Shown here in pieces: positions 33,497-55,261 of a stretch of DNA of 64,000 nucleotides; positions within the stretch are counted from its first letter, which is position 1, and every line of letters starts with the position of its first letter. The DNA comes from Chrysoperla carnea (taxonomy: Eukaryota > Arthropoda > Insecta > Neuroptera > Chrysopidae): assembly GCF_905475395.1 (NCBI RefSeq), contig NC_058338.1, positions 13,406,935-13,470,934 of the forward strand, in the 5' to 3' direction. The position numbers and the translations under genes were made by a program. The notes below the pieces were generated by a model. It worked only from the letters and a program-made list of their open reading frames with translations, did no database searches and had not been told where the DNA came from.

Positions 33497-34177
33497 AATT
33501 ACAATTTTTTGTTAAAATAAAAAATGTTTAATTTGTTAACCACTAAATAATCTAATTCGATAAAAACAAATAAAACATAACACAACAGTCAACACCACGT
33601 TTATTCTTTGTTGTATACACATGCGTCGAAAACGTTTATGATGAGGCGGGTAACATATGAATATTACATAATTAAAATGTATTTAAAAATTTTATATATT
33701 TAAAAATAAAAAAGACGAAATTTATTAATGTTAATTATTAATTAGTCCATTCCCGGTTGCTGAAATTTTTACAGCTTGATCAGGACGTAAAAAGTGAGGT
33801 CGAGTTCGTAAATGAGCAACATAGATCAATTCGGTCTTGTAAAATTTATATTGAAATTTAAATGGCTCCTTATAACTTTTGATCCAGAGGGTGAACAAAG
33901 CTTAATCCCAAATTTTTAGGTCAAGCGAAGCTATAGGAAAGAATTTAGAGGTTCATTTACTGGGTAACAGGCAGACATAAAAATTCCTTTTGCTTTTTGG
34001 CTACGGAATCCTAAAACTTATCTACGATAGTGCGGTTATAAATTTTAGATCGGACTATAAATTTTGTAGATGAATGTATCTAAGCAACGACTATTGCCAT
34101 ATACAAAATGTTTAACGATTTGTGTAGTTTAAATTATGTGTCACTTTTAATTTCATTAAAAAATCTCTAGCCAAAAT
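33497..34177. other. Divergent region EXOSC5 / gene A, with dispersed repeat
   Basis: It contains a dispersed repeat fragment (about 33782-34010). Its first 29 bp are an exact reverse-complement match to 19298-19326, and its middle (TAACTTTTGATC, AAGCTTAAT, CCAAATTT) resembles 4910-5000 in a brm intron. An X-box-like motif at 34076-34088 precedes gene A. Confidence 0.6.
34076..34088 (+). promoter_or_regulatory. X-box (RFX)-like motif upstream of gene A
   Basis: GTATCTAAGCAAC, 89 bp before the ATG. The right half AGCAAC fits the RRNRAC half-site of the RFX X-box. The left half GTATCT fits the GTHNYY form known from C. elegans but departs from RYYNYY at one base. The same motif precedes genes B and C. 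Confidence 0.5.
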
Positions 34178-35377
34178 ATGGATTATTATGACGATGGCAA
34201 GAGTGAGCATAGTTTATCGTTGCGTTGATACCAGCTCAAGACGATCATGCAATTTCAAATGTGCATACATATGATGTTGAATTAAAAACACTCGAATACA
34301 AGCAGGAAGCATTAAAGCCAAAAAAATTTCCAAGTCTTAACACAAAGGAATTGTTATTTTTAGATTTATACAAACAATTAAATTTAGGTACAGAACAGAA
34401 ACGTGATTTCCATGCATTATTAATACGTATGGGATCTATAAAAGATTTAATAAATTTATCAAAAGATATATACAATGATATTAGCGACATTATATGTTGT
34501 CCGGATAAACGATGTTTATGTGATCCAACAAATCAATTCAGGCGCTCATCAAAGTTTAGTCGTCAAAATCAACAAAGACGAGTTTCTAAGCGTACATTTG
34601 GTAAAGTATGTACTCTAAACATTTTGAACATAAAAAGTTCTTTAAAAGTTCATTGTCTTACAAAGTATTACATATATGTTAAGACCATATATGTAATACT
34701 CCTATGTCGCCAGCGGACCATGGTCTCCTATGAGAATTTGAGGGGGACCGACAAAAACAAGCGAGACAGAGCAAAAGTACTTTGTATATTATGCGCATGC
34801 GCAGGAATCATACTTTCTTTTATTGTGATCTAGAGCGTGAGAGGAATATTTCGTCTGCACCGTGATGTTTTTGCACGTACCTCTCACTCTGCTGGCTATA
34901 CAGGAGTATTACCATAGATAAAGTAATAGTACTTTTACAAAATCTTTGAGTATTACACATATGGTTGAGACAATGCCGCCATTTACAGTCAAAAACATTA
35001 TTTCGCGCCATAAAATAAGGGAGAATGGGGTTGGCAACCAATGGCACATCCTTGATACTAATCCAATCGACATTTCGATTTTCAACCCTATAGCTCATTG
35101 ACATGGTTGATATGGTTTTCAACTTTTTGATGTGGTTGTTTGAATTATTTTGTTTAAGAGCTCAGAAGATTATGAAGTTAAAAGATTAAATGAATTAAAA
35201 GCTTCAAATAATGAGTTAGTGAGAATAAACAAACAATTAATCAAAATGCGAGGAATTATTCAACATCAAGACGAAGATAGCAGTAATTTTTCTAACTTAT
35301 TGCTCTTACAAAGAGATGTGGCTTATCAAAAAAATATTTTATTTTTAATAGAAGAAAAATTACGTGGATATATGTAA
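34178..35377 (+). pseudogene. Gene A, paralogue of an unrecognised two-exon family, with an apparent frameshift near its start
   Basis: Exons 34178-34605 and 35159-35377 (donor GTATGT). Exon 1 starts MDYYDDGKSEHSLSLR and then hits TGA. The frame that continues one base over (IPAQDDHAIS...) matches paralogues B and C all the way to RTFGK at the exon end, so a 1-bp indel near 34220-34225 is likely. It is either a real lesion or a sequencing error. Exon 2 (72 residues, coiled coil) is open. The conserved core is KRDFHALLIRMGSIKDLINL and CCPDKRCLCDP. I do not recognise the family. No signal peptide or membrane segment is seen. The gene is opposite in strand to B and C and tail-to-tail with an odorant receptor. 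Confidence 0.6.
34696..34909. mobile_element. Short MITE in the gene A intron
   Basis: 214 bp bounded by ATACTCCTATGTCGCCAGC and an imperfect reverse complement (about 15 of 19 match), flanked by TA on both sides, which fits a Tc1/mariner-type insertion. A perfect 15-bp hairpin (34664-34678 with 34686-34700) overlaps its left end. A diverged direct repeat of about 22 bp (34664-34685, 34950-34971) brackets it. Confidence 0.55.
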
Positions 35378-35739
35378 ATGAGGTGTACTGAAACAAGAAA
35401 GATTTTGGGAAAGTTAAAGGAAAATAGACTTTAATTTCAGATGATGTAAATACGTACATAATTTGCTTTGTAATTGTTATGTGTTAAAGCTTGTTATGTG
35501 CCAAAGGTTTTATCATAGATAAAATATATGGGTTTTATTAAAGCTGTCTATAGACCGTGTCGTGTTTAATATAATACCTACCAGAGACTATATCAGTAAA
35601 TTTACCGATATATTCTCTGATACCTACTGTCATTTCAATAACATACAATAGAACCATTAATTTTTTTAAATGTATATGCTACGATGTTAGACTTATATTA
35701 GTAATTAATTAGTTTAATAAGTGATTGAAGTTTCGAAGT

Positions 35740-38490
35740 TTAAACAAAATTACGTAGAAAAGTAAGTAAGGAGTAAGCTGTTCTGATAGCCTGTAAATAA
35801 AATTTTTAGATTATTTTTCGAAAAAGTAGATATATTCCAAAATAAAAAGAATAAATACCGATGTATACGCTGCCATGGACATTGGAAAAAATGATCCAAC
35901 TTTAATTTGCAACGGTCTTTGTGCTCGTAATATAATAAACATAATTATTGAGCGTAGTTTCTTATTATGTTGTGCAGGAAATATATACCAATCAGTTTCC
36001 CAGACTTGGTCTGCTACTTTTAAACTCTAAAATTTTATAATAGTTAAAAATATAATAAACAAAACTGGTAAGCGTTTTTAACTATGGTAAGCGATATTTT
36101 AGATACGTACCTCAAAATGTAATTTTGCTCCATAATAATATAGGATAAACAACTCCAAAATTTTAGACATTAAAAATACCGAAATCCATGCAAAATCGAT
36201 TGTAAAAAGATCTGTCTGTAATTTAAACATATTTAGATATTTTGAATATTTTTCATAATAAACCACAGCCCAACAGTTCAATGCCTTTTTAAAAGTAATT
36301 CTATTAGTAAATTCTGATAGTAATCACTTATAAACACCGGCTCTGGGCAGTGGTTTCTTAAGAGTTTTATGAAAAATATATACCAATAATAATTGAAAGC
36401 CTGTGACACAAAACAATACCATATAGAATAAAAACACAAGTAGCATTATTGGGCTGATCAAATCATTTAAAACTTCAATATATCTAAAAAAACATTAGTT
36501 TAATTTAAATTGTTTTCTGTTTGCTTTTAAGCTACATATTAATCGGAAAAACAGTCTGATCCAAGAATCGACTTTTTGCCAGTAAATTTTCGATTTACGC
36601 CTTTAAAGTGGTACAGAAATACTCTACTTCCGGACACCATATTCTATTTATTTAACATTAAAAGTATTCGTAATATATTGAGGACCTTTGGCTTAAAACT
36701 GAACTTTTCGGCAACAGTTTTCAATGTTCACATTTTCACGGAGGCTTATAAGACAAACCCTCGAAAAGAGGGGGAGGTAAGTCAAAAATTAAATTATTAG
36801 TGTTTGTCTAAATTTAATTATGAACAAAATGAGAGCCGTATTAGATTAAAATCTGTTCAGTATAAAAAAATAACTTGAACTCCTTTATTTTACATTCATT
36901 TACTCGACTGTGTACATAACACTACAATTTAGGCGATAAATCGATAATATTTGCTTAGACAACGTACATCACAACTGGTAAGTATACTAACTTACCGCGA
37001 TACATCTTGATGTAACTGAATACATTTGTACAGTTTAATATACATTTTCGATTCTTCGTATGTTCTTTCCGAAAGTGCCTCTCGAAATTTAAACTGAATA
37101 AGACGAAGTTGAATAATAGCGTGAATTATCAAATTTAATACTAATGCCTCTAATAATCCAGCAATTACTGTCGATGGTATGCCAAACACTAGAAAGTAAA
37201 TACTTATCACCTCCGTACAGAAAGTCATCTATGAGTCTCACAGAAAATTGATTGAAGTATTGGGGCAATTTTAAGTTTTGGCTGTTTAGATGATTTTATT
37301 TTTAAATAAGTTAAAGAAACATAAACCTAGCTTAAAGATCTAGTATTTAATGCACTGCTGAAGGCCTGAATGTCTGAATGAGCACATATAAGTTAATTTT
37401 CATGTATCCTAAATCATTTCCTAAATATTAATATGCATACCAATCTCGATAGTCATTGATAATAGAAAATGTTCTTTAGGATCAAAAGGCAACCATATTT
37501 TCATTGGCAAATTAACTTCACCAGTAAGAAGTATTTTTAGAATATTTGGTATACTTGCAGAAGAGAAAGCCATAGTATACAGAAACCATTGATATCGATT
37601 TGCTTTATTGGCATCAGCTACACCATTTTTAATAATTTCCAATTCATTTGGGTCCAATTGATTTTCATATGTTGTTTTCTCGTAAATTTCATTGAATAAA
37701 TATTGACAGCCATTACTTCGAATAATTCGAAATTTAGTTATGCTGACCTTAAACAACAAGCCGGTCTTAAATTAAAAGCTTTATACTATATGCCACTGAC
37801 GGAGATATTCTATCCTGTATTTATGAAATACATATCAAGTAATACTAATTATAGTTCCAAGTTTTATAGGTGTTCATAAAATCACCTAATGAGATATTTC
37901 CGTTTGTCCGCCTGTCCACTCGCCCATGAGCGCACGATAACGCAAAAACAAAAAGAGATATCAAACTGTAATTTTTATAGCAGGCTCAGGAAGGTGAGTT
38001 TGAGTATAAATAAATTGTATGTATCGATATTTTTCCCCTGGGAGGGGGTAGGACGCCTAAATTTTGGTAGAACCCGGCAAATCTTCATTACTAGTGCCAT
38101 GATAAAGTTTAATAACAAAGTTTCATTGTGGTACATGTTTTGTCGCCAAAATATGCTATTTTTCCTGTACTATTAACTGTAAACATAAGAAAAGAGAAGG
38201 TTCTTTGGTATATTTTTGATACTTACCAGGAAAAAAAATGTAACAATTCCATTATACGTCATATTTGTTAAGCTATCTAAATGTAAAAAAAAATCAGCCA
38301 ATTGTGTTATTAACATTAAAATGTAAAGTGAAATTGCTATTGGAAAAATTGTGTATTTTTGAATAGTACACGATTTTAATTTGTTTTTTTCATCTTTATC
38401 TTGTTCCAAACTTATATCTGGGAATGACATGCCCATATAATACATTCCAGTTACACAATAGTATAATAATGGATTCTTTAAAATTTTCAT
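35740..38490 (-). CDS. Insect odorant receptor (7tm_6 family), complete
   Basis: Seven exons: 38490-38227, 37747-37441, 37188-36996, 36483-36384, 36215-36111, 36026-35859, 35790-35740; 396 codons, 395 aa, typical for the family. It would act as the odour-tuning subunit of a ligand-gated cation channel with Orco in olfactory neuron dendrites. Hydrophobic segments alternate with loops along the chain (for example FPIAISLYILMLITQLADF in exon 1 and LISPIMLLVFLFYMVLFCV in exon 4). The diagnostic C-terminus is present: LELFILYYYGAKL, ...WETDWY, ...LQIKVGSFFPMSMAAYTS and AIRTAYSLLTFL in the short last exon. The phase pattern of the final three introns fits insect ORs. No Orco-specific features are seen. 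It lies between genes A and B. Confidence 0.9.
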
Positions 38491-39296
38491 TTTTCGTCTA
38501 GTAAGTGCTTACTAACGCAATACCAAGAGAAAAATAAATTTTAACAAAACTTAAAAAGCAAAATACATAGATAATTGTGTAACTTTCAAAATGATAAATA
38601 ATTAATTAAGAAGGTATTTAATAATCGAAATAATCAGTTTATAACTAAATATGTAGGTAATAATAACATAATTTAGCTTTTTTTATTTTTACATAATTAA
38701 GTTTTTGTTTAACTTCCATCCCAACTATAGCTTGGAATTTTATAAAATAAAAGTTGGAAAATGAACAAAAAAATGAAACTTGTAAATAGACAAAAAAAAA
38801 TTATGATAATAATATTAATTAGGCAACTTGAATTACGTTTATGTTATACATATATAATAATTATTGATTATTTGACAAACACTTAACATTTACGTCATAC
38901 AAGTTGCCTATTGACTACCTTTTTAAGAAACACATTGCATGAGGTTTTTTTACATATCGAAAACTAAAAACTCCCTTATACATATATTACATGCGTTTAA
39001 TTATATGGGGGATTTTTTTTTAGAGAAATATGTATATCATTTAGTTATCAATTATATTGATCAATGAATAATCAAATAGCTAAATTTTTTTAATCAAATT
39101 TTCATAACTTAATTTTCAAATTTTAATAACATATAATTAACATTCAACTTTTTATTCTAACCACCATATTTTTGATTTGAAATAAAATTTTCAATATATC
39201 AATTTATCAACAAAAAAAAAAACTATACTCAAACTGGGTTTTTTAAAATATATTTTTCGTTCGAATAAAACAGTATTTTGAAAATTTTAAATGAAC
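38491..39296. other. Region between the odorant receptor start and gene B
   Basis: Very AT-rich. An imperfect inverted repeat lies at 38820-38845 and 38885-38910 (TAGGCAACTTG arms), flanking an AT-rich loop. It should hold the receptor promoter and the gene B 3' UTR. I see no gene. Confidence 0.5.
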
Positions 39297-40369
39297 TTAT
39301 AAATATTTGCTTAGTTTTTCCTTTAAATAATATAAAATTTCTTTATTATAAGCCACATCTTTACGCAACAATAATGAATTAACAAAATTATTCAAATCCT
39401 CATCTTCATGTTTAATTGTTCCACGCAGTTTATTTAGTTTTCTATTTATTCTAACCATTTCCATTTGCGTATCTTTTAATTCAGATAATTTATCTAATTT
39501 AAAATCATCCATATCCTTTAACACACCATTTTCAGAGAGAAAATCGTAAATTGAAAATAAATTCTATGCTATTCATACAGGTGATTTTTTTTAAATATTC
39601 AGCTAATTTTATCAAAACGAATTGGAACATTAAATTTAAAAAATCAACAAACCTAACGGCGTTAAATAAAAACTGAAAAGAATAAAACAAGTCCAGTACT
39701 TTTAATAGTGACTAACAGTCGGGATCCATTAAAATTTATACCGACTCAAATGGTCCTAATAATGGCGCCCGACTGTTAAAGTCGCTTTGTAAATTACTAG
39801 ACTTGTTTTATTCTTTTCAGTTTTTATTTATCGCAGTCGGGTTTTAGATTTTTAAATTTATTTCTTTTATTTTACATTTTTTAGTTTGGATTTTAAAACT
39901 CTGATTATAATATTCAGGGCCTTTAAATCTTTGAAATAGAAAGAAGTTTTTATTATTATATGAACATACATACATTATCAAATGTACGATTGGCAACATC
40001 AGTTTTAAAACTATCTTTAGTTGATATCCTGAACTGACGAGTCGGATCACATAAACACGATTTATCCGAACAACAAACAGTATCTTTAATATCATTAAAG
40101 ACAACTTTTGATAAATTTACAAAATCTGCCACAGATGACAAACGTACTAATAGCGCATGAAAATCACGTTTTTGTTCTGGATTCATTTCCATTCTTTTAT
40201 ATAAATTTAAAAACAACAAATCCTTTTTATTAAGACCTGGTAAAACTTTTGGCTTCAATGACTCTTGTTTGTATTTCTTTGCCATATCTGTCTCTGAAAT
40301 CATAAAATCTTCATTAACTGACATCACATCGATACTAGATAGACTGTCGTCATTGTGAGCCATATCCAT
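39297..40369 (-). CDS. Gene B, paralogue of the unrecognised two-exon family
   Basis: Exons 40369-39974 and 39515-39297, joined in phase 0 (donor GTATGT, acceptor TTAAAG); 204 aa, intact. The N-terminus is acidic. Residues about 50-130 hold the family core: LNKKDLLFLNLYKR, EQKRDFHALLVRLSSV and CCSDKSCLCDPTRQFR, where the Cys cluster could bind metal or stay reduced. Exon 2 is a coiled coil (MVRINRKLNKLRGTIKHEDE, VAYNKEILYYLKEKL). There is no signal peptide, so a cytoplasmic protein is expected. I recognise no known family. An X-box-like motif lies 153 bp upstream, and a MITE sits in the intron. It shares intron position, phase and exon 2 length (219 nt) with A and C. Confidence 0.75.
39652..39841. 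mobile_element. MITE with perfect 30-bp inner inverted repeat, in the gene B intron
   Basis: The arm at 39664-39693 (AAATAAAAACTGAAAAGAAT...) is the exact reverse complement of 39800-39829. The match continues outward at lower identity to CCTAACGGCG / CGCAGTCGGG (39652-39841, about 190 bp). No target-site duplication was recognised. No coding content. Confidence 0.8.
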
Positions 40370-40521
40370 GTTATTAAGGCATAATTAAATCTGGATGACT
40401 TGAATAATTTTTATTGGATATTACAATTTTGTACGCAAAGTTGATATATAGGTACGTTTAATTTAATGCGGTGTCACAACAAAGACCAAAGAAATCGAAT
40501 TTTTTTTATCAGGTAACTGTA

Positions 40522-40534
40522 GTTGCCTAGATAC
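40522..40534 (-). promoter_or_regulatory. X-box (RFX)-like motif upstream of gene B
   Basis: Minus strand GTATCTAGGCAAC, 152 bp before the gene B ATG, in the same orientation relative to the gene as in A and C. Half-site GGCAAC fits RRNRAC. Confidence 0.5.
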
Positions 40535-41398
40535 ACACAAGATTGGTTACACCAGTAACAGAGGACCCCGGACACAATACATAGTTTTTGGTTTCGGTTA
40601 AATTTTTTTGAAAGCTATGGATTAAGTTAGTTTTGATCATGATGATCAAAAGGTCTTGTGGATTCAACCTTCATAAATCCTTTCCTTCCGAGCTATGGTC
40701 CTTCAAAGGTTATTTTGGTGAAATATAACAATATAACAAACATTTCTAAAAATAAATTATAGAGCTGAGTTTGGCTTTACTTTCGGTGTCCATTGACCAA
40801 ATAATTAATAATAATGATACACCATTAATTCCATTTTATATATTTTTATTAAATGTACAAAAAAGAAAAACAAAACAGGATGACACGTATTCTTAACTTT
40901 AAAAATGTTCAATATCTAATTATTATATTTACCCAAGTTCTGTTCCAAAAGGGGTAATAGTGTCATTTGCCCTTTTCATAATGTATAAAAGCCTCTTTTA
41001 TGTAATTAGGAAAACTCGGTGCTCAAAGTCACATAAGGGAGTAAAAAATATTCTATTATTATAATATTCTTATAATAATCTGAAATCTTTCATGATTTCA
41101 TGAGAGGTTTTTTAATGAGCTCATTACATACTAACTTATCCAATTAATAAAATGGACAATATGAACGTGGACAACTGAACTTCGTTTAACAACCTTTTCA
41201 AGAGAAATTTATTTTGACGGAAGCGTATGCGTATATAGTCCATCTAAATAGCGGCGAATGTATGATGTACGCATAAGTTTCTTTCAAAATTCTTCTGTCA
41301 CACATAGCTATGCCTTTTTCATTCGAATAAACTATTGACTAATAAGTATCACATAAACTTAAGAATATGGTCCCTGTTTTAGGTGGTTATCAATCTTA
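40535..41398. other. Region between genes B and C
   Basis: AT-rich sequence with no gene I can support. It should contain the gene C 3' UTR. Confidence 0.4.
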
Positions 41399-42202
41399 TT
41401 ACATATAAGACCTACGTAACTTTTCTTCTAAATAATGCAATTTTTCTTTATTATGTTGTACATCTTTAAACAGTAATGATTCAACAAAATTATTCAAATC
41501 TTCATCTTCATGTTTAATTATTCCTCTCAGTTTGGTTAATTCTCTATTTATTTTAGTTAACTCATTTTCTGTGTTTTTTAATTCAGCTAATTTTTCAATT
41601 TCGAAATCATCGACAGCCTTTAACAAAATACCTAATTACAAGACTAACCAAATTCATAATTCAAATAATTCCGTTGATGCTGATGGGTCCGTTGACAGAC
41701 TGACAGTGTTGGAACTTTCTTTGATAAGTTGATTTAGAGCTTTGAAATATAAACAATTGCTTAAGAGATATATACAAATACATACTTTACCAAATGTACG
41801 TTTGCCAACGTGATTTTGATAAGCGTATTTAGTTGATATCCTGAATTGATGAGTCGGATCACATAAACATCGTTTATCCGGACAACAAATAGTATGTTTA
41901 ACATCATTAAAAATTTCTTTTGATACATCTATTAAATCCTTTACTGATGACATACGTATTAATAACACATGTAAATCACGTTTTTGTTTCGTAGTTAGTC
42001 CGATTCTTTTATAGAAGTTTAATAATGACAGTTCCTTTTCAGTAAGATTTGGTATTACCGAAGGACTTTTATATGCGTATTCTGGTTTCCCTTGTTTCTT
42101 GACCCGGGGCCAAACACCAAAAGTGTCTGAAATTGGAACGAGATATTCTTCATCAGCTGGCAAAACTGTTAAACTACGACTGTCGTCATCGTGATCATCC
42201 AT
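41399..42202 (-). CDS. Gene C, paralogue of the unrecognised two-exon family
   Basis: Exons 42202-41786 and 41617-41399, joined in phase 0; 211 aa, intact. An acidic start (MDDHDDDSRSLTVLPADEEY) is followed by the family core LTEKELSLLNFYKRIGL, KQKRDLHVLLIRMSSVKDLI and CCPDKRCLCDPTHQFRISTK, then RTFGK at the splice site. Exon 2 is a coiled coil (LTKINRELTKLRGIIKHEDE) of the same 219-nt length as in A and B. The intron is the shortest of the three (168 bp). An X-box-like motif lies 113 bp upstream. Function unknown; the promoter motif hints at ciliated cells. Comparing the three, the CC-x-DK-x-CLCDP-xx-QFR block is the best conserved part. Confidence 0.75.
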
Positions 42203-42314
42203 GTTTAAGTAAGGAATAAAGACTGACTCTCGATGATTCGAATAATTTTTACAGAATATTACTATTTTGAATAGAAATTTAATAAATAATTTTAAGATTT
42301 AGTAAAAGAAAATC

Positions 42315-42327
42315 GTCGCCTAGATAC
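42315..42327 (-). promoter_or_regulatory. X-box (RFX)-like motif upstream of gene C
   Basis: Minus strand GTATCTAGGCGAC, 112 bp before the gene C ATG. GGCGAC still fits RRNRAC. Same orientation and similar distance as in A and B, although the surrounding sequence has diverged. Confidence 0.5.
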
Positions 42328-52863: not shown

Positions 52864-55261
52864 TTTGCAGATTATGATGTTGATTTGTATTATTACAGTA
52901 GTCATTTCATTTGTAAAATCTGTTTTAAATGTAAATAAAAAAGAAAATTAGTTAACAACAGTTTTACTTTAACAGAATTTAAAATTAATGAATAAAATAT
53001 GTGATTTCAGTGATTTTGATCCCTTGGAGTGTTTAAAGGTATTAGAATGACAAAAAGTTCATAGTTCGCGAGATAGCACCCCTTTTGTTAAATGATCAAT
53101 ATATACTTGAAACTTCGTGAGTGGTTCCCTTTTAACAAGTCTATGAAACTTTCTCTCAGTGATTTTTTTGAAAGAACTTCATATTTAAGCTATCTGTCTG
53201 AAAAAAAGGTGGATTAAGTATACCCAAGAGGCGTATCCAATAAAAGAGTATGACGTGCACACTACAAAACTTTAACTCCGACACAAGAGGATATGGCGGG
53301 AGAGGATATGGCGTTTGATATACCCAAGTCTGATATCAAATAAAAGGGCATGATGTGTACATTAAAAAACTGTAAGTTACATGAAAGTCACTTCAACCGT
53401 TTAAAAGTTGTGAACTCTTTTATCGAGGGTTTATCCCATTTCATAAAAGTTATTAGATACTTCTCATCTGTTTCTAAGCAACCATAATGTGCCACAGTAA
53501 AGCGTGCCAGGATTCCTCGCCAAAATAATAAAATCGATGAAATTGTGAACAAAAGGAGCATAAGTGACGGCATATGAAGTGTAGTTTATAGCACAATAAT
53601 CTTTGTTTTTTAAATTGAAGTTGCCCAGCGAAGCGGGTAGTTCACAGCTAATCATTGCTAATGCGTTAAAATTACGTGAGTAATTAAAAGTTCATTAGGG
53701 AATTAGATTTAGGAATTCTCAACTCAAATATACATTATATTACTAGTATATAAATATTTCTTTAATATAATACAGTTATTAATACAATGTAGTACAAAAA
53801 ATATAAATTCAATCACATTTATACATGATATTACAAATATCTCTAAGTACATTAACAAAATAGCAATTTACAAATGATAATAAAACTTTTATCCATCATT
53901 CTTTAATGCCCAATAGCTTAGCGATAAAAATCCCTTTCAACGCCTTTATCAATTAGATATAAAATTTGCTAGTAGGTCTATGGTCAGGAATATTATTTGA
54001 GAGCCTGTTGTCATGACCTTGTCTACAAATTTGTCTTCTAAGAACATACCGCCCTCCATTTTCATAAGGGGATTTCTTTTTTAAGGAGCCTAAAAAATCT
54101 TTAATTTCGCGGCAAGCCGAGTGTCCATGAGCATACAGTACGTCATTGATAAATACAGCTCTAGAAATTGGTGTGTGGCTAAATTGTGGTTAGCCTAATA
54201 ATTTTTTAACCTTCGAAAGTTCTTGAAGATGAGGTGTTCTCTGACATGCCTCATTTGTTGGTAGTATAAAATGTCGTTCGTTCTTTGGAATATAGACTTA
54301 TATTCAAAGAGTCATCAACAGAGTAAGGTATAAATGAATATTTTTAAAACTTTATATTGTATACTTTGCTTGAATATTAATAATTTTCGGATAATTTTAA
54401 ATTCTTTAAATTATACATCTAACAAAGAATGTGAAAGAGACTTATACCGTGCTCGCTCAAAAAACTCGATAGTTTAGAATTGATCATTTTTAATGCTGAA
54501 TGGCATCGGATAATTGTGCCACTATAACAGTGATATCGGATAAACTGTGCCACTATTCATGCTGAATGACATCGGATAAACTGTGTCAATATTTCATCAA
54601 ATAAATTACCAAATGAAAAATGAGTCACTGAATTTAAAAGGGGTCGTAAACGACGAGAAACAGTGGAATAGATTAAATTAGAGTGTCATCCATCATAATA
54701 AAATCAACCGTTTTTTTGGAAACATTTCTCAAAAACCGTATGCATTCTTTTAAATGACTCTGAATATCAAATTCATGGTTATCAATGAATATTCTCATCT
54801 GAACCCAGAAATTTTCACACTGGTCATTTTTTAATTGAGGACTTCTCTGATGAAATATTGATGGTATATGTCTATAAGACACATCCAACCGTAAGATTTA
54901 GAAAAAAGAACAGGTATGTGATCTTTGCAGAACACTTAAAACTAAATATGTACAATTTTAAACTCTTGCCTCACAATAACTCATACCTTTTCATCTTTCA
55001 CCACATAACAATGCAAAACTTTCATTTCTAATCAAATCAACATTTATAAATTGCTTTATAATCTAAAAACAAGCAGTACAATAGTATCGCTTAATATGTG
55101 TTCCATTTCTTTAATCAATAAAAAAAATATGCGAGTTAATCAGACCACCATATTAATGTTTGAAACACTAGCGCCATACGTGATAGAAACAAATACTAAG
55201 CGAGGTAAAAATTAACTTTGTGTAAAAATAAAAAAACTCACTGACTAAAACCTATAAAAAA
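52864..55261. other. Intergenic region between mRpL40 and the RING gene, with repeat remnants
   Basis: It contains the mRpL40 3' UTR. Two 57-bp units share TATACCCAAG and ATAAAAG (53219-53275, 53319-53375; spacing 100 bp). A transposon-end-like sequence GCCCAGCGAAGCGGGTAGTT lies near 53627. Short imperfect tandem repeats with ATCGGATAAACTGTG units occupy 54490-54595. No confident gene, apart from a weak open frame at 54673-54888. Confidence 0.5.
54673..54888 (-). CDS. Hypothetical open frame, possible terminal exon
   Basis: An open minus-strand frame of up to 71 codons (stop at 54673), with a possible acceptor (CTTATAG) at its beginning. The predicted segment looks protein-like (QLKNDQCENFWVQMRIFI, HLKECIRFLRNVSKK) rather than repetitive. 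I recognise no family and found no upstream exon in the 370 bp before the RING gene. It may equally be chance. Confidence 0.2.
   Translation of the reverse strand: MDVSYRHIPSIFHQRSPQLKNDQCENFWVQMRIFIDNHEFDIQSHLKECIRFLRNVSKKTVDFIMMDDTLI

Follow-up and report, generated by a model that had tools for sequence, protein, structure and literature searches.

How three neighbouring genes of a family without a name came to keep one short element ahead of their start codons is the question raised by a 64,000-nt stretch of the 559-Mb Chrysoperla carnea genome (NC_058338.1, 13,406,935–13,470,934; this whole stretch is referred to below as the window). Genes A (plus strand), B and C (both minus strand) are tandem paralogues within the 8.3 kb spanned by their motifs, and each is preceded by an X-box-like element: GTATCTAAGCAAC at 34076..34088 (+), 89 bp before the ATG of A; GTATCTAGGCAAC at 40522..40534 (−), 152 bp before that of B; and GTATCTAGGCGAC at 42315..42327 (−), 112 bp before that of C. 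Matching with GTATCTARGCRAC recovered all three exactly, at the positions (34076, 40534 and 42327) and ATG distances that a first-pass annotation of the window had given. The explanation favoured here, in which the element is an asymmetric X-box and the genes form an RFX-driven ciliary trio, is as a whole put at even chances.

Motif and surroundings were compared pairwise, anchored on the motif. Identity was 0.92, 0.85 and 0.92 within the motif, 0.23–0.38 over the 40 bp before it and 0.32–0.45 over the 60 bp after it, with about 0.29 expected for unrelated DNA of the same composition. GTATCTA is identical in all three elements, and the variable bases are confined to the RFX-like 3' half. The best 13-mer shared by the three 300-bp upstream regions showed 4 pairwise differences, a level of sharing matched or surpassed by 6 of 2000 shuffles, by 31 of 2000 triples drawn at random from the genome and by none of an earlier set of 200 shuffles. 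Retention of the motif while its flanks diverged argues for function, and the promoter element is very probably functional.

The simplest competing account is that the motif is without function, having been copied along in the duplications and persisted by chance. Common ancestry of the genes speaks for it, as does the agreement that paralogues still show at about half of their synonymous sites (synonymous differences, pS, 0.43–0.51), and B and C share another promoter block of 30 bp that is 87% identical between them and was not found in A. This block lies 33–67 bp before the ATG, at 40402..40431 (−) in B and 42240..42269 (−) in C (coordinates worked out from upstream positions 339–368 and 334–363 of 400, respectively). 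Against chance survival stand the flanks, 23–45% identical beside a motif at 85–92%, and the low frequency of such sharing in the shuffles and genomic triples above. Moreover, a site scoring at least 9.47 (the X-box matrix score of the element of A, see below) was present in all three members of just 18 of 200,000 random triples, and none of these 18 was as alike as A, B and C. Chance survival is rated as highly improbable. The first-pass annotation had described the upstream surroundings as diverged, which holds for the motif flanks but not for the second block of B and C; its caveat that the motif could have been copied with the genes was right as to origin, while the retention against diverged flanks speaks for function.

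For the comparison with RFX sites, a half-site matrix was trained on Table 2 of PMC2375033, where 14 dRFX-regulated genes supplied 28 X-boxes from two species. Among the rows of that table, those of invariantly expressed genes were all excluded, as were CG13178, CG12548 (both rows), the second row for CG15161 and the two extra ones for CG9595; CG18631, with its site 2.6–2.7 kb from the ATG, was kept. Background consisted of 898 windows of 200 bp, taken from the window outside 33.9–43.0 kb plus 13 loci, with the motif word masked. The elements of A, B and C scored 9.47, 12.35 and 10.35, values reached by 3.45%, 1.34% and 2.0% of the background windows (4.6%, 1.6% and 2.2% before masking), and 34 background sites in 181 kb reached 9.47. 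With the full training set the elements thus scored above random DNA of the same genome. The best scores in the 200 bp upstream of three other genes of the window were −1.83, −0.17 and 0.09, the last belonging to the odorant-receptor gene.

The score was unevenly distributed over the element. The 3' halves AGCAAC (A), GGCAAC (B) and GGCGAC (C) reached 9.65, 12.53 and 10.53 of a maximum of 12.53, and they follow the strong half-site forms RGYAAC and RRNRAC, that of C being one base off RGYAAC yet fitting RRNRAC. The strict X-box consensus RYYNYY N1-3 RRNRAC is matched by none of the three elements, the third base being A in each, which is the single departure from RYYNYY that had been noted at first pass; all three match the more degenerate RYNNYY N1-3 RRNRAC (Table 2, PMC2375033). 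Since the 3' half scores high and the invariant 5' half GTATCT contributes −0.18 of a possible 12.5 in every case, the elements are best described as one-half-site X-boxes in which the other half is invariant yet unexplained. The initial view of the motif as close to the RFX X-box therefore stands for the RGCRAC half and the above-background score, but not for GTATCT. As a separate observation, RGCAAC is followed after 4 bases by a second RFX-like half, RTTRCC, with equal spacing in A (34083–34098, +) and B (40512–40527, −); C is without it.

An element of this build has counterparts in Drosophila. The dRFX targets of Laurencon et al. 2007 (PMC2375033) resemble the trio in the strong RRNRAC half, in a spacer of 1–3 bases (1 in the trio), in the distance from the ATG (50–160 bp for 19 of the 28 published sites in the matrix) and in a site kept within mostly non-conserved surroundings. 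They differ in their 5' half, which is GYTRYY where the trio has GTATCT, and in that their conservation was seen between species, whereas that of the trio is among paralogues, for which control by RFX is a prediction. GTATCC occurs as a 5' half in the same source, in the D. pseudoobscura gene that corresponds to CG14870, a B9 gene. One-half-site X-boxes (RGYAAC) are described in PMC3414849 and PMC4168999 for fd3F/Rfx targets, which according to the former often pair one strong with one degenerate half. The chordotonal fd3F/Rfx genes (Newton et al. 2012, PMC3414849) are accordingly like the trio in having one strong half RGYAAC and one degenerate half; they differ in that a Fox motif accompanies their X-box, usually at most 50 bp from the start, whereas A and B have no Fox motif within 300 bp.

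The genome itself was searched for RFX factors and canonical sites. An RFX DNA-binding domain was found at four genomic places, all above the cut-off; by eye, two are of RFX1-3 type (C4 and C1), one is RFX5/7-like and one ARID2-like, and the single domain compared with PDB matched human RFX1 (E 8.7e-37). The palindromic X-box GTTGCYNRGCAAC has 36 genomic sites, compared with 13 for its reversed control. This genome uses canonical X-boxes. As a positive control, the 600 bp preceding the first exon piece with a match (start codons not mapped) was scanned for eight ciliary genes from six family searches, namely three B9 genes, IFT57, IFT46, BBS5, CLUAP1 and IFT20. Scores of at least 15, reached in 0.67% of 298 background windows, were obtained for three of the eight: CLUAP1 (19.3), the B9 gene on C2 (17.6) and IFT57 (15.1). 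All three sites score higher than the elements of A, B and C.

A number of results weigh against the RFX explanation. The positive control was partial, because five of the eight ciliary genes had no site of at least 15 (IFT46 10.3, BBS5 8.0, B9 on C5 5.8, B9 on C3 4.8, IFT20 −0.9). The training set of the matrix includes one GTATCC half-site, and without its last three and most deviant sites the numbers of background sites that attain the scores of A, B and C are 56, 18 and 45 in 181 kb. With this stricter set the result for the X-box is weaker. In the window 19 sites score at least 9.4, and the score alone proves little because 16 of them are not the three elements. Across the genome GTATCTARGCRAC has 16 sites, as has its reversed control, so there is no enrichment, and the looser GTATCYNRGCRAC shows little excess (117 sites, 92 for the reversed control). 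Three of the 16 sites of GTATCTARGCRAC fall within 8.3 kb, at A, B and C, but paralogues are not independent witnesses. Open-reading-frame strings around 7 of the 13 sites outside the window were inspected by eye, without a family search on them; two look like mobile-element remnants, and no ciliary gene was recognised. According to PMC2375033, an X-box upstream of one gene alone does not predict dRFX dependence, and conservation across species is the good prognostic factor. The Fox motif RYMAAYA occurs within 300 bp 0 times in A, 0 times in B and 3 times in C, so that co-regulation by Fd3F is not supported; with a background of 1.12 per 213 bp, and at least one in 63% of 213-bp windows, its absence is not rare. 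The genes themselves add two further points, namely a frame broken near the start in A as assembled and the lack of a homologue of known function in sequence searches of Pfam and PDB, both of which are treated below.

Some of these results would be expected if the element were constrained but read by RFX with only one half or not at all, another factor recognising the invariant TGTATCTA and the likeness to RGCRAC being partly fortuitous. The bases that never vary (GTATCTA) are those outside the RFX-like half, GTATCT scores below zero under the X-box matrix, and the exact word is without genome-wide excess. On the other side, the 3' halves score 9.65–12.53 of 12.53, whole-element scores are reached by only 1.3–3.5% of 200-bp windows, and a strong half beside a degenerate one is often found in published fd3F/Rfx targets (PMC3414849). 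Such a reader, with RFX absent or only half of the story, is regarded as rather unlikely, and an RFX factor, as the best-supported reader, would probably bind the elements.

A different switch altogether would be a testis programme, in which an element like beta2UE1 of the beta2 tubulin gene (PMC2880298, PMC6896403), in reverse orientation, makes spermatocytes express the genes. Testis genes could well form a tandem family that evolves fast and includes a broken copy. The beta2UE1 word of D. melanogaster (PMC2880298) aligns with the motif on the reverse strand, at an offset common to all three genes, with 10 (A), 11 (B) and 9 (C) of 14 positions matching. These matches are equalled or bettered in 12.6%, 1.2% and 59% of 597 background 300-bp windows, so those of A and C are not above background and the fit is weaker than that to the X-box. 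The beta2UE1 words of D. virilis and D. simulans fit worse, and the invariant GATAC part is absent from beta2UE1. Sperm of Rfx-mutant Drosophila are motile, according to PMC4168999, which speaks against RFX but not against a beta2UE1-like testis switch. Overall, a testis programme of this kind is judged very unlikely.

The gene models on which the promoter distances rest were derived for all three copies. Gene B consists of an intact exon 1 of 396 nt (39974..40369, −), an intron of 458 nt (39516..39973, −) and an exon 2 of 219 nt including the stop (39297..39515, −). Gene C has an intact exon 1 of 417 nt (41786..42202, −), an intron of 168 nt (41618..41785, −) and again an exon 2 of 219 nt including the stop (41399..41617, −). 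In gene A, exon 1 (34178..34605, +; 428 nt) is followed by an intron of 553 nt (34606..35158, +; GTATGT...AAG) and an exon 2 of 219 nt including the stop (35159..35377, +). All introns have a GTATGT donor, an AAG acceptor and phase 0, A being read in its downstream frame, in line with the common intron position and phase and the 219-nt second exon reported at first pass. The ATG of A (34178) aligns with those of B (40369) and C (42202).

That annotation had missed the break in the frame of A. Translation from the ATG ends after 16 codons, and the frame homologous to B and C, shifted by one base, is open from 34213. Beyond the break A is 51–52% identical to the other two copies, and B and C are 53% identical; with the remainder of A preserved about as well as the other copies, the break, if real, is recent. 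Gene A would then be a recent pseudogene, or the break would be an assembly indel, or a 32-nt GT...AG stretch (34203–34234) would be spliced out. The last option, which is compatible with any of the readings of the promoter, would make this stretch a very short intron and leave A intact rather than a decaying copy. Its removal gives 428 − 32 = 396 nt, the exon-1 length of B, and it would suit the slight decay after the break; a one-base indel is simpler, however, and 32 nt is below the usual length of insect introns, so that such an intron is strongly doubted. A two-mismatch relative of the promoter motif sits on the frame break, at 34219–34231 on the minus strand. The intron of B contains an inverted repeat (39649–39844) with 65-nt arms, 85% complementary and 66 nt apart, and a second inner pair of 19 nt, which looks like a small non-autonomous transposon.

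The encoded proteins of B and C comprise 204 and 211 residues, and pairwise identity within the family is 51–53%. Nonsynonymous and synonymous divergence by counting (dN/dS) was 0.37/0.85 for A–B, 0.38/0.72 for A–C and 0.30/0.65 for B–C, which indicates purifying selection on average across the three genes. Alignment bore out the conserved CC-x-DK-x-CLCDP-xx-QF block already recognised at first pass, with CCPDKRCLCDPTNQF in A, CCSDKSCLCDPTRQF in B and CCPDKRCLCDPTHQF in C. Because its CC-x4-C-x-C part holds every cysteine of the sequences examined (for A, of the part after the frame break), the four block cysteines suggest a metal site or a structural role. A crude heptad count, which is not a proper coiled-coil prediction, put hydrophobic residues at 7 of 8 a/d positions in the C-terminus of both B and C; for A the best window falls within exon 1.

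When the whole genome was searched with two queries, C exon 1 (E up to 0.001) and B exon 2 (E up to 1), just these three loci and no further family copies were returned; A was not a query, and the search scores best candidates only. In Pfam no family scored above cut-off with B as single sequence or with the profile, the best hit being DUF3781 (E 0.031, B only), and PDB gave no match for either query; one round of these searches used a B sequence with one wrong residue. By this sequence search no relation of the family to a known ciliary or axonemal family was found. With a mean predicted local distance difference test score (pLDDT) of 42, the AlphaFold2 model built for B on the three-row alignment was of too low quality to be searched for related folds. 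No paper on the gene family was recognised in the literature, a result that says little, as the searching was by words and not by sequence. The family has no name in the libraries searched; the kind of finding, new ciliary genes from X-box screens, is already known.

Between A and B lies an odorant-receptor gene (35814–38508, −), with a 7tm_6 match on two of three exons tested, both under the Pfam cut-off; 7tm_6 odorant receptors are an insect family. The cluster is flanked on one side by an unnamed gene at 32.5–33.5 kb (−), for which the single exon tested had no Pfam match, and beyond it by a CLP1 gene. On the other side a helicase gene with DEAD and DSHCT domains extends from 42.8 kb to about 49 kb (−). 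Elsewhere in the window there are two more X-box-like sites, GTTTCTAAGCAAC at 53470–53482 (score 14.3) and GTTGCCCAGCGAA at 53620–53632 (score 12.6), 150 bp apart and with no gene start placed nearby.

The favoured explanation can thus be put as follows. Three tandem paralogues would encode small proteins, about 205 residues long, that combine a tetracysteine block with a probably helical C-terminus. The one promoter element before these genes was presumably inherited from their common ancestor and held by purifying selection. On this asymmetric X-box an RFX factor would dock at the strong 3' half RGCRAC, about 90–150 bp before the ATG, while the degenerate GTATCT may serve as a second, weak half-site or be bound by a partner factor. 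The genes would be active in sensory neurons that bear cilia, or else in the male germ line, and judged from the promoters their expression in ciliated cells is an evenly balanced proposition. From the motif, a ciliary, sensory or sperm role is plausible. The products would probably have a structural or adaptor role in the cilium or at its base; that they sit in the cilium at all is possible, if somewhat doubtful. In a more specific version, the invariant TGTATCTA fused to an RFX half-site would mark a lineage-restricted tetracysteine family of one specialised cilium (a sensory-neuron subtype or the sperm tail), with RFX joined by a partner that takes the place of the Fox factor; such a composite element is considered unlikely.

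If the RFX explanation is true, an undescribed gene family would be added to the parts list of the insect cilium from promoter and paralogy alone. The trio would also be a natural test of how much degeneration is tolerated in the second half of an X-box, the non-consensus half being the invariant one in these genes. If the promoter element is right but the cilium wrong, the three genes would still offer a modest, testable example of constraint on a promoter following tandem duplication.

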